Assembly (NCBI RefSeq): GCF_040183065.1
Contig: NC_091120.1
Location: forward strand, 191,473,627-191,537,626
Origin: Periplaneta americana
Taxonomy: Eukaryota; Arthropoda; Insecta; Blattodea; Blattidae
Length of the DNA: 64,000 bases
Direction: 5' to 3'
Shown here: positions 35,227-52,720 of the stretch, one piece after another
How the letters are laid out: each line of letters begins with the position of its first letter
Numbering within the stretch: the first letter of the stretch is position 1
Made by a program: the position numbers and the translations under genes
The notes under the pieces: model-generated
What the model was told of the DNA's origin: nothing
The model's input: the letters and a program-made list of their open reading frames with translations, nothing else
Database searches by the model: none

Positions 35227-35448
35227 GTTTATTTTTACTGGCAGAGTTAAGGCCATTTGACCTTCTCTTCCACTCGACCAGTATGATAGAAAATTACGAG
35301 TACTACATTGCTATGAATATAACATAATACAATTCAAAGCAATGCAATACTATAATACAAGACAATATAATACATAATTAATATAATACAATGACAATTA
35401 TTTTCATCTTCACAACACCAATAAAATAATTATGTAATAATAATACTT
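35176..35448 (-). mobile_element. Short LINE 3' UTR fragment with (TAA)n tail
   Basis: (TAA)n at 35176-35223, then TGGCAGAGTTAAGGCCATTT, the same terminal motif as at 59640-59720. AT-rich beyond. It abuts the tRNA-like concatemer. Confidence 0.6.
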
Positions 35449-36409
35449 ACGTTAAACCAAAGGTCCCAGGTTCGATACCCGGATCCGGAACAATTTTTCC
35501 CTCGAAATTATTCAAATCAACTTTACAGGGAGTTATACCTGAAATCTTGATTTGCATAATACACGTCACTGTTCGTTAACAGAAAACCACAATTTAAGTC
35601 ACACGGAGTTAGTGTGCACTCGAAGTTGGTTGCTTGACGGTTGTCAGCCCACTTTGAGGTCTGTGGATATAGAAGGAGAAATTGGATCGGTGTCGGTTAG
35701 AGTTCCCGGGTAGCTCAGTGGTAGAGCGTTGGTACGTTAAACCAAAGGTCCCGGGTTCGATACCCGGATCCGGAACAATTTTTCCCTCGAAATTATTCAA
35801 ATCAACTTTACAGGGAGTTATACCTGAAATCTTGATTTGCATAATACACGTCACTGTTCGTTAACAGAAAACCACAATTTAAGTCACACGGAGTTAGTGT
35901 GCACTCGAAGTTGGTTGCTTGACGGTTGTCAGCCCACTTTGAGGTCTGTGGATATAGAGGGAAAAATTGGATCGGTGTCGGTTAGAGTTCCCGAGTAGCT
36001 CAGTGGTAGAGCGTTGGTACGTTGAGCCAAAGGTCTCGGGTTCGATACCCGGCTCCGGAACAATTTTTCCCTCGAAATTATTCAAATCAACTTTACAGGG
36101 AGTTATACCTGAAATCTTGATTTGCATAATACACGTCACTGTTCGTTAACAGAAAACCACAATTTAAGTCACACGGAGTTAGTGTGCACTCGAAGTTGGT
36201 TGCTTGACGGTTGTCAGCCCACTTTGAGGTCTGTGGATATAGAAGGAGAAATTGGATCAATGTCGGTTAGAGTTTCCGAGTAGCTCAGTGGTAGAGCGTT
36301 GGTACGTTAAACCAAAGGTCCCGGGTTCGATACCCGGCTCCGGAACAATTTTTCCCTCGAAATTATTCAAATCAACTTTACAGGGAGTTATACCTGAAAT
36401 CTTGATTTG
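35449..36409 (+). mobile_element. tRNA-like concatemer 1: 3.4 tandem 285-bp units
   Basis: Head-to-tail units at an exact 285-bp period. tRNA-like modules lie at 35704-35775, 35989-36060 and 36274-36345, plus a 5'-truncated one at the left end. Each folds as a cloverleaf: acceptor TCCCGGG/(A or C)TCCGGA with one C:C mismatch, D arm GCTCAGTGGTAGAGC, anticodon stem TTGGT/ACCAA around loop ACGTTAA (anticodon position GTT, Asn-like, but C at position 33), T arm CCGGG-TTCGATA-CCCGG. The 10-bp TSD AATAATACTT lies at 35439-35448 and 36410-36419. The 3' end is at CTTGATTTG. Confidence 0.88.
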
Positions 36410-36419
36410 AATAATACTT

Positions 36420-38158: not shown

Positions 38159-38977
38159 AATTTAAGTCACACGGAGTTAGTGTGCACTCGAAGTTGGTTG
38201 CTTGACGGTTGTCAGCCCACTTTGAGGTCTGTGGATATAGAGGGAAAAATTGGATCGGTGTCGGTTAGAGTTCCCGGGTAGCTCAGTGGTAGAGCGTTGG
38301 TACGTTAATCCAAAGGTCCCGGGTTCGATACCCGGCTCCGGAACAATTTTCCCTCGAAATTATTCAAATCAACTTTACAGGGAGTTATACCTGAAATCTT
38401 GATTTGCATAATACACGTCACTGTTCGTTAACAGAAAACCACAATTTAAGTCACACGGAGTTAGTGTGCACTCGAAGTTGGTTGCTTGACGGTTGTCAGC
38501 CCACTTTGAGGTCTGTGGATATAGAGGGAAAAATTGGATCGGTGTCGGTTAGAGTTCCCGGGTAGCTCAGTGGTAGAGCGTTGGTACGTTAATCCAAAGG
38601 TCCCGGGTTCGATACCCGGCTCCGGAACAATTTTTCCCTCGAAATTATTCAAATCAACTTTACAGGGAGTTATACCTGAAATCTTGATTTGCATAATACA
38701 CGTCACTGTTCGTTAACAGAAAACCACAATTTAAGTCACACGGAGTTAGTGTGCACTCGAAGTTGGTTGCTTGACGGTTGTCAGCCCACTTTGAGGTCTG
38801 TGGATATAGAGGGAAAAATTGGATCGGTGTCGGTTAGAGTTCCCGGGTAGCTCAGTGGTAGAGCGTTGGTACGTTAAACCAAAGGTCCCGGGTTCGATAC
38901 CCGGCTCCGGAACAATTTTTCCCTCGAAATTATTCAAATCAACTTTACAGGGAGTTATACCTGAAATCTTGATTTGC
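38159..38977 (+). mobile_element. tRNA-like concatemer 2: 2.9 tandem 285-bp units
   Basis: tRNA-like modules at 38272-38343, 38556-38627 and 38841-38912 (periods 284 and 285). The 3' end is again CTTGATTTGC. The flanking minisatellite phase is duplicated by 14 bp (AACATTTTATGAAT at 38145-38158 and 38978-38991), as expected for a TSD. Loop is ACGTTAA, with stem variants ATCCAA in two units. Confidence 0.88.
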
Positions 38978-39034
38978 AACATTTTATGAATGAATTGCTG
39001 TATTTGGAAAATAGCATTTTATGACTGAATAGCT

Positions 39035-50262: not shown

Positions 50263-50545
50263 CAGTGTAGGCTTTCACGGCCGGAGTCTATAGATGTAGA
50301 TTCATTTTCCGGGCTGAGAGGCCTTGGTCTGTTGGTTGGTTTTATACCAGACGTTTCGTCTGCAGTTGCGGCAGACATCTTCAGTGGAGTGGTATGCGAG
50401 GTCGCAAGACTGATCAGTTGCCTCAGGTACGCCGAGATACCACTCCACTGAAGATATCTGCTGCAGTTGCAGACGAAACGTCTGGTATAAAACCAACCAA
50501 TAGACCACGGCCTCTCAGCCCGGAAAATGAATCTACATCTATTTA
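50263..50545. mobile_element. Penelope-like fold-back with hammerhead-like motifs
   Basis: Inverted arms of 105 bp (50291-50395 and 50437-50541) around a 41-bp centre. The arms contain CTGAAGA, a short stem-loop (GTCTGC..GCAGAC) and GACGAAACGTCTGG: right arm 50448-50483 plus strand, left arm on the minus strand. CTGANGA..GAAA..GTC is the hammerhead core order, reported in Penelope-like element terminal repeats. GGCTTTCACGGCCGG at the left edge is also typical, from memory. An extra base after CTGAAGA makes activity doubtful. Confidence 0.65.
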
Positions 50546-50559
50546 TTTATTTATGTATT

Positions 50560-51347
50560 ATATTTATTTATAGTACGTTTGACGTGAATACAAGTTAATA
50601 CAATGAAAGATAAACTAGCCCACGCCTGAATGAATAAGACTCGTGCTCAGGAGGGATTCCAGTACAGACAAAAATAAAATTAAAATTGAGAGTGAATACA
50701 GATTAAAAAGTGTTTAATGTGTTTAAACCCAAACTATAAATCCAATACAATTTTTTTAATTTTTTTATTAATTTGGAGAGTATTCGTGGTTAAAATATTA
50801 TTAGAATAAAATTTGTTTAATAATCTGGGACCTTGACTCATGCTATGATAAAAAGCTGCATTGGTTTTACATTTAGGTTCAGACAAACACAGAGAATTCA
50901 TATTTTTAGTTCTATATTTATGTATATACCTTTCAATGTTATTTAAGATTTCTGTCAAAATATTTCAATAAAATAAAATAATAAATTTGTTTAATGTTGA
51001 AAACTTTGAAATGTTTAAACAACAATTCAGTTGAGTAATCTTTCTGCTTTTTTTAAAACAAATTTTAAATACTTTTTTCTGTAGTAAAATTAATAGATAT
51101 AGGTTGGATTTATAAGCTCCACCCCAACCTATAATACCATACATAAATATACTCGTAGATTGAAATAATGCTAAAAAAAATTGTACGTAAACAGTTAATT
51201 GACAAAAAATTTCTTAGAAGAACAAAGTAATATGTATTACTTAATTTATTACAAATATAATGAATGTGATTATTCCATTTTAAATGATTATCAATAATTA
51301 TAACTAAGTATTTAACCTGATTAATTTAATTAATAATTGAACAATTG
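50560..51347 (-). pseudogene. LINE-C RT C-terminal fragment (copy 2), 3' part
   Basis: Minus strand: VKYLVIIIDNHLKWNNHIH (about 51300-51240), YYFVLLRNF, IIGWGG, CFKKSRK.TQLNC, then PKCKTNAAFYHSMSQGPRLL and the stop near 50735. Broken by stops and frameshifts. Its upstream part continues at 52622, beyond the inserted inverted concatemer, with NCSI duplicated in frame on both sides by the TSD. Confidence 0.8.
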
Positions 51348-52621
51348 AATAATTTCGAGGGAAAAATTGTTCCGGGGCCGGGTATCGAACCCGGGACCTT
51401 TGGTTAAATGTACCAATGCTCTACCAACTGAGCTACCCGGGAACTCTACCAGACACTGATCCAATTTTTCCCTCTATATCCACAGACCTCAATGTGGACT
51501 GACAACCGTCAAGCAACCAACATTGAGTGCACACTAACTCTGTGTGACTTAAATTGTGGTTTTCTGTTAACGAACAGTGATGTACATTATGAAAATCAAG
51601 ATTTCAGGTACAACTCCCTGCAAAGCTGACCCGAACAACTTCGAGGGAAAAACTGCTCCGGACCCGGGCACCGAACCCGGGACCCCCGGCCAAACGCACC
51701 AACGCTCCACCAACCGAGCCACCCGGGAACTCCACCAGACACCGATCCAACCCCCCCCCCCACATCCACAGACCCCAATGCGGGCCGACAACCGTCAAGC
51801 AACCAACACCGAGTGCACACCAACTCTGTGCGACCCAAACTGTGGCCCTCCGCCAACGAACAGTGACGTGCATTATGCAAATCAAGCTGCTCGCCAACAG
51901 AAAACCACAATTCAAGTCACACAGAGCCAGTGCGCACCCAACGCTGGCCGCCCGACGGCTGCCAGCCCACACCGAGGTCCGTGGACACAGAGGGAAAAAT
52001 TGGACCGGCGTCCGGCAGAGCTCCCGGGCAGCCCAGTTGGCAGAGCGCCGGCACGTCCAACCAAAGGTCCCGGGTCCGACACCCGGCCCCGGAACAACTC
52101 CCCCCCCGAAACCACTCAAATCAACCCCACAGGGAGCCACACCTGAAAGCCTGATTTGCATCTTTGAGTCTATAATACATCAATTAAATTTATAACACAT
52201 ATTCTTGAAGAATGTAAAGATATTTGTAGGAATTCTTAGCTGCTTAAAGCCAAAACTGGTTTATATATTATATTTCACACTTCAATCCAGAAAATTTTAC
52301 CTTACCTTGTTCTTCTAATGTGCACTTCATTTAATAACATGTGAATAACTGTTCGTTAACAGAAAACCACAATTTAAGTCACACAGAGTTAGTGTGCACT
52401 CAATGTTGGTTGCTTGACGGTTGTCAGTCCACATTGAGGTCTGTGGATATAGAGGGAAAAATTGGATCAGTGTCTGGTAGAGTTCCCGGGTAGCTCAGTT
52501 GGTAGAGCATTGGTACATTTAACCAAAGGTCCCGGGTTCGATACCCGGCCCCGGAACAATTTTTCCCTCGAAATTATTCAAATCAACTTTACAGGGAGTT
52601 ATACCTGAAAGCTTGATTTGC
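51348..52621. mobile_element. Inverted tRNA-like concatemer with one-strand T-to-C hypermutated core
   Basis: 1,274 bp flanked by a perfect 13-bp TSD, AATTGAACAATTG (51335-51347, 52622-52634), splitting a LINE-C frame. Order: minus unit, normal (51348-51600); minus unit, altered (51601-51886); plus unit, altered (51887-52160); unrelated 185-bp spacer; plus unit, normal (about 52346-52621, ending CTTGATTTGC). tRNA-like modules: 51370-51442 and 51656-51728 on minus, 52022-52094 and 52484-52556 on plus. The GC-rich ORFs on both strands at 51567-52195 arise from the base change and are not genes. Confidence 0.9.
51611..52151. other. T-to-C hypermutated zone (A-to-G on the minus strand)
   Basis: Aligned to the unaltered sister units, changes are nearly all T to C on the plus strand in both arms, centred on the hairpin apex at 51886/51887 (276 and 265 bp each side). 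Apparent A-to-G differences match G in other family copies and so are ancestral. T survives in the loop (ATTATG, 51872-51877) and mainly in TC and TG contexts. Confidence 0.85.
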
Positions 52622-52720
52622 AATTGAACAATTGTAATTTATATGGGAACAGTCAAAATTATGCATTTTAATTTTTAGTATAGTTGAAGTTGGTTTGTTA
52701 CCTTTACTATTTATAAATAC
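52622..52720 (-). pseudogene. LINE-C RT fragment (copy 2), 5' part
   Basis: Minus strand: STILKIKMHNFDCSHINYN, leading in frame into NCSI of the duplicated target. The reading continues at 51335 leftwards. Truncated at about 52720 by a (TTTA)-type run. Confidence 0.72.

Follow-up and report, generated by a model that had tools for sequence, protein, structure and literature searches.

A hairpin RNA of a short interspersed element (SINE), hyper-edited by ADAR, was very probably retroposed into a chromosome of Periplaneta americana. The window, as we call the whole 64,000-nucleotide stretch of DNA that was analysed, contains copies of a 285-bp tRNA-Asn-like repeat arranged as an inverted array, and the inner hairpin of this array, made of two arms termed L2 and R1, forms a 541-bp altered zone (51611-52151). 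When the majority of the four closest sister loci (on contigs C11, C13, C2 and C14) is taken as the reference, 103 of the 146 T in the two hairpin arms have become C, beside one other substitution (G>C). This reading draws on sequence comparison, and all of its evidence comes from one genome assembly of 3.23 Gb in 91 contigs (17 chromosome scaffolds and 74 unplaced contigs), which was searched for sister loci, target repeats and further altered copies.

Anatomy of the insertion

The array is flanked on its left and right by a 13-bp target-site duplication (TSD), AATTGAACAATTG. For a test of the empty site, the joined flanks served as the query and 40 of 1,749 candidate places, including the window itself, were scored; the 39 other scored places of the target repeat are all uninterrupted across the site, and AATTGAACAATTG is present once in each of three aligned related target repeats. 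Because the duplication lies on both sides and the target repeats elsewhere are uninterrupted, 51348-52621 is a 1,274-bp insertion, with the following parts:

51335-51347, no strand: target-site duplication, left copy (AATTGAACAATTG); its last three bases, TTG, are also the first three of the donor match (microhomology)
51348-52621, minus strand: retroposed insertion, 1,274 bp; the RNA copied for 51345-52347 was probably minus-sense
51345-51589, minus strand: L1, tRNA-Asn-like unit, unedited (0/67 T changed); 51355-51600 identical to the donor unit (246/246 bp)
51590-51863, minus strand: L2, the donor hairpin's left arm, with editing that starts at 51611 (51/71 T>C); its outer 21 bp (51590-51610) are unedited (0/6 T)
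51864-51886, no strand: hairpin apex, predicted to fold as a short stem with a 3-base loop; 0/6 T changed
51887-52160, plus strand: R1, the donor hairpin's right arm, with editing as far as 52151 (52/75 T>C); its outer 9 bp (52152-52160) are unedited (0/4 T)
52161-52347, no strand: x, donor-locus flank that came along with the array; 99.5% identical to C2 and C14, 0/74 T>C, one T deleted
52348-52622, plus strand: R2, second copy of L1's donor unit in inverse orientation; 275/275 identical to the unit in C2, C11, C13 and C14
52622-52634, no strand: target-site duplication, right copy (AATTGAACAATTG)

L1 and R2 are inverted copies of one donor unit, 100% identical to it over 246 and 275 bp. Three apparent L1/R2 mismatches were rejected, as their positions fall outside the unit, in flank x. 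The left end of the insertion carries the TTG shared by target and donor, and no microhomology was found at the joint between x and R2 (52347/52348). ARAGORN calls tRNA-Asn in the repeat, corresponding to the tRNA-like part of the SINE. Elsewhere in the window, two tandem arrays of the same 285-bp SINE (35448-36417 and 38159-38978) both begin within a unit and show no excess of A>G or T>C, and a separate short palindrome with 106-bp arms, 94% complementary, lies at 50290-50542 beside a long ATTT array.

The sense of the RNA can be assigned from family copies of differing 5' extent (loci L062, L065 and L067), since these end at one unit position: they share the 3' end ...CTTGATTTGCA or a close variant of it. 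L062 has a 13-bp TSD at this shared 3' end, and for L065 and L067 the script called no proper TSD. The RNA behind 51345-52347 would then be minus-sense, and T>C on the plus strand therefore A>G in the RNA. The layout suggests a 5'-inverted, twin-primed insertion, in which R2 directly copies the unit at the RNA's 3' end, and L1-L2-R1-x is an inverted copy made from that RNA or from a sister molecule. A preliminary description of this DNA, made from the letters of the window, had reported neither the insertion nor the twin-priming layout nor the donor loci.

Donor loci and hairpin fold

Five sister loci (C11, C13, C2, C14 and C7) carry the same palindrome in unaltered form, and window positions 51345-52347 are colinear with them over their full length, apart from a single gap. 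When the two edited arms were used as queries and the best 40 of 3,017 and the best 40 of 1,574 candidates were scored, the top matches besides the window were 85% and 82% identical. The donor array is embedded in a larger repeat on five contigs (L029-L033), of which stretches 3.5-6.5 kb long agree between loci at 96.5-98.7% identity; within this repeat, L032:445-1608 (minus strand) holds a fragment of a reverse transcriptase and RNase H reading frame (Pfam RVT_1, RNase_H) on the strand of the putative RNA.

In the predicted fold of the donor RNA, L2:R1 is the single long duplex. The long helix slightly exceeds these arms (51578-52182), and the six additional T that it takes in are unchanged. 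Seven T in the arms of the zone are left unpaired by the fold, at mismatches, and all seven are changed. The preliminary description had ascribed the unchanged T near the apex to a loop, which holds for 51873-51874, unpaired and unchanged; the remaining apex T fall in a short stem of the fold and are unchanged as well.

Substitution pattern

The left arm (51611-51863) has C in place of 51 of its 71 T, together with the single G>C, and the right arm (51887-52151) in place of 52 of 75, with no other change. No A in the zone is altered (0/150), and T>C is absent outside the edited arms (0/157, part by part in the list above), where one T is deleted. L1 shows no substitution against the four-locus majority, nor does x, apart from its T deletion. 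Of the 104 substitutions in the zone, 103 are of a single type, A-to-G in the RNA sense that follows from the twin-priming layout. All changes lie within L2:R1, the predicted long duplex, and 0/141 T outside L2 and R1 became C. By way of control, the private changes in 121 unit copies amount to 59 of A>G and 54 of T>C, with at most three A>G per copy. The preliminary description had noted a near-exclusive T-to-C difference in both arms of 51611-52151 and proposed a comparison of substitution types between the core and the outer units; the counts given here bear the observation out.

Neighbour context

ADAR enzymes favour adenosines by their 5' neighbour in the order U, A > C > G. Read in RNA sense, the changed sites of both arms fall by 5' neighbour as U 29/29, A 43/50, C 23/40 and G 8/27 (left arm: U 14/14, A 22/23, C 12/21, G 3/13; right arm: U 15/15, A 21/27, C 11/19, G 5/14), and in the window 5' A or U differs from C or G with Fisher p = 2e-9. 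An earlier tally made by hand, whose stretch (51641-51886) coincides only in part with the left arm counted here, had given the plus-strand order TA, TT > TG > TC and was read as ADAR-like, and the full count returns the same order.

By 3' neighbour, the window gives U 22/28, G 22/29, C 27/40 and A 32/49, A being the lowest of the four. According to PMC5625713, G is strongly depleted upstream of edited sites in all species groups of that study, and invertebrates show an enrichment of A 3' of edited sites; this 3' enrichment is not present in the window, which counts against the ADAR reading. In four other loci (see below), the triplets favour purines 3' of the edited A.

Other loci with A-to-G clusters

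The preliminary description had suggested a search for other clustered copies. We compared 131 unit copies from the window and 39 loci, plus three further loci, counting as edited those A whose variants occur in at most 5% of control copies. Four more insertions have A>G clusters in RNA sense, all at lower density than the window: L058 (13/72 A edited), L062 (8/72), L064 (12/71 in the outer arms and 13/78 in the inner antisense arm) and L069 (17/70); as the loci were chosen because they resemble the edited zone or its sister unit, these counts give no rate or share of edited copies in the family. The four loci together give, by 5' neighbour, U 27/76, A 20/121, C 12/86 and G 4/80 (A/U against C/G, p = 4e-4), with UAG (12/20) and UAA (9/18) as the best triplets. 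The four also hold a few other private changes, as in the full unit of L062 (1 T>C, 2 C>T, 3 G>A and 3 transversions).

L064 repeats the pattern of the window: its left outer arm has 11 plus-strand T>C, its inner plus-strand unit has 13, and its right unit has 11 A>G, likewise on the plus strand. Its inner units share four variants (u238, u247, u248 and u263) that look inherited and not edited, and its stretch 2430-2520 aligns poorly, holding 3 G>A and 8 transversions beside 8 T>C. Over their overlap, the inverted outer arms have edited sites in common: 12 in L058 (12 and 13 in the two arms), 10 in L064 (11 and 11) and 5 in L069 (5 and 5). Such sharing is as expected if one edited RNA was copied into both arms, and later gene conversion between arms could be another source of it. 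Each of the four loci has its own TSD. Edited sites overlap between loci (of the 13 in L058, 8 are common to L064 and 8 to L069), so the loci may not be independent; 1, 2, 2 and 6 sites are private to L058, L062, L064 and L069, respectively.

Two candidates were not counted as edited loci, namely L070, with one private A>G, and the tandem copy L068 on C3. The latter has private A>G in both units (L068:196-767; u177, u187, u189, u218, u221 and u248) together with C>T and T>C; it may represent an edited lineage of some age. Among other palindromic copies of the family (29 pairs, L058 and L064 left out), private variants are shared between arms in 29 cases vs 210 unshared. A general formation of family palindromes at insertion from one RNA is unsupported by arms that share so few private variants, and inversion at insertion is therefore not demonstrated for the family at large.

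A candidate editing enzyme

The genome encodes an ADAR-like deaminase. A profile search of the genome found four A_deamin matches at C7:68033349-68055411 and two at C6:15288961-15293798, a locus which we take to be ADAT1-like. One C7 exon peptide matches human ADAR2 with E 5e-20, its best match in the PDB. No dsRNA-binding domain was found near the C7 deaminase exons, and because the genome's matches to this domain lie elsewhere, the C7 evidence falls short of a complete ADAR gene. The top dsRNA-binding domain match of the genome is on contig C85 (G000 C85:1021059-1021256), away from the deaminase exons.

Proposed mechanism

The sequence of events may be reconstructed as follows. A minus-sense RNA would have been transcribed from the donor array, for which four near-identical candidate loci were found. 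In this RNA, L2 and R1 would pair as a hairpin of about 270 bp, with L1 and flank x left without a long partner, and ADAR would deaminate A to I along both strands of the duplex, the apex and the ends being spared; the single change type, the neighbour order and the confinement of the changes all suggest deamination of the duplex. The edited RNA would then enter target-primed reverse transcription, in which first-strand cDNA made from the 3' end of the unit would give R2. A second cDNA, primed from the other target end through the TTG microhomology, would yield the plus strand of L1, L2, R1 and x, with C copied from each inosine, and the joining of the cDNA ends at 52347/52348 would leave the 13-bp duplication. 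An overlap of about 230 nt between the two cDNAs on a single RNA is more than twin priming needs and counts against twin priming on one RNA; the insertion may instead have come from two RNA molecules or through a template jump. The same process would apply to the edited copies at the other loci.

Of the two routes named in the preliminary description, the fixation in the genome of an edited hairpin RNA has gained support from the donor loci, the TSD together with paralogous sites that are uninterrupted, the inverse orientation of L1 and R2, the restriction of changes to the donor duplex, the neighbour order and the A>G clusters of the four other insertions. The other route, edited minus-strand cDNA, fits worse, as L062 and the direct arms of L058, L064 and L069 carry A>G in the RNA sense and not in the sense of the first cDNA strand.

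If the proposed retroposition of an edited RNA is correct, RNA-level information has been written into inherited DNA through SINE-type retroposition, at a locus where donor, target, duplex and editing sites are all readable and which preserves a snapshot of ADAR at work on what looks like a single hairpin molecule. More broadly, RNA editing might mutate this SINE family repeatedly and heritably, a proposal for and against which we see the balance as even: insertion with inversion would create palindromes, palindromes would give hairpin RNAs, ADAR would rewrite up to about 70% of the A in an arm, and the rewritten RNA would be reinserted, so that the germline would gain edited elements and the genome would keep single-molecule records of ADAR activity. 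Clusters of A-to-G alone, in RNA sense and inside TSD-flanked insertions, can be scanned for, and such a scan could measure how frequently edited RNA re-enters genomes.

Alternative explanations

ADAR can act on DNA in RNA:DNA hybrids, and the deaminated substrate could accordingly have been dA in minus-strand cDNA, produced by a single template-jumping reverse transcription. The layout permits this, for if the whole insert came from a plus-sense RNA by a template jump, T>C on the plus strand would be A>G in the minus first strand. The hybrid would, however, also span L1 and x, where no T became C, and the direction of change in L062 and in the direct arms of the three palindromic loci is again that of the RNA; we regard deamination of cDNA as very improbable. 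Polymerase eta has WA hot spots, which the 5' A/T preference at A resembles, and the tract is centred on a palindrome, as it would be if an error-prone polymerase of the eta or iota type, placing G opposite T, had filled a gap across a cruciform extruded from existing DNA. Such a polymerase would have had to change every UA (29/29) while leaving one other substitution in 541 bp, and to stop at the limits of the donor's duplex although L1 and R2 would lengthen the palindrome here; since five palindromes of the donor type are also unaffected and a cluster of A>G occurs in L062, a tandem copy without an inverted arm, gap filling seems extremely improbable.

We give hardly any credence to an artefact of base calling, consensus or assembly, even though palindromes are hard templates and the sequence is known from the assembly alone. 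Base calls are normal in five sister palindromes that have these arms, which is why a palindrome artefact is set aside; in addition, the changes track RNA strand sense and 5' neighbour, L058, L062, L064 and L069 show changes too, at lower density, and the assembly is probably PacBio HiFi, going by PMC12774602. Somewhat more weight, while still unlikely, is due to the view that these four loci form one A>G-rich subfamily and that the window locus alone records an editing event. Their overlapping site sets, above all those of L058 with L064 and with L069, speak for common descent. Against it stand the separate TSD and some own sites of each locus, the best triplets UAG and UAA, as an enzyme preference predicts, and the inner antisense arm of L064, whose 13 T>C in unit sense would not be given by an inherited A>G subfamily.

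Relation to known systems

Both ADAR hyper-editing and twin priming are already known, as are A-to-G clusters in integrated retroviral proviruses (PMC8025556). Among the titles listed by a literature search that left subscription papers mostly outside, none concerned an ADAR-edited SINE RNA retroposed or fixed in a host genome, and PMC2873906 expects re-integration of edited retrotransposons to be rare.

Ultra-edited RNAs (PMC3197674, PMC5625713) share with the present locus the dense A-to-G change in one strand sense, the strong depletion of 5' G and the preference for repeats; they differ in being known at the RNA level, whereas here the product lies in assembled genomic DNA, and in the 3' A enrichment of invertebrates (PMC5625713), which the window lacks. 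A-to-G hypermutated BLV proviruses (PMC8025556) likewise display clusters, ascribed to ADAR1, in reverse-transcribed and integrated DNA, but these concern three retroviral proviruses with at least 7 changes in about 70 bp, in contrast to the 103 changes that a SINE-type insertion carries here in a reference genome. The insertion resembles 5'-inverted (twin-primed) LINE-1 elements (PMC4245944, PMC2912911) in its TSD, which is 10-20 bp long in those elements, its inverted 5' part and its microhomology at the 5' junction, and departs from them in that its arms overlap, giving a palindrome; one 5'-inverted Alu among 5,554 is recorded in PMC2912911. Finally, the German cockroach SINEs Sbg1-9 (PMC9191728), likened here by description, are also short retroposed repeats flanked by direct repeats, one of them dimeric, while the present family differs in forming palindromic and tandem arrays.
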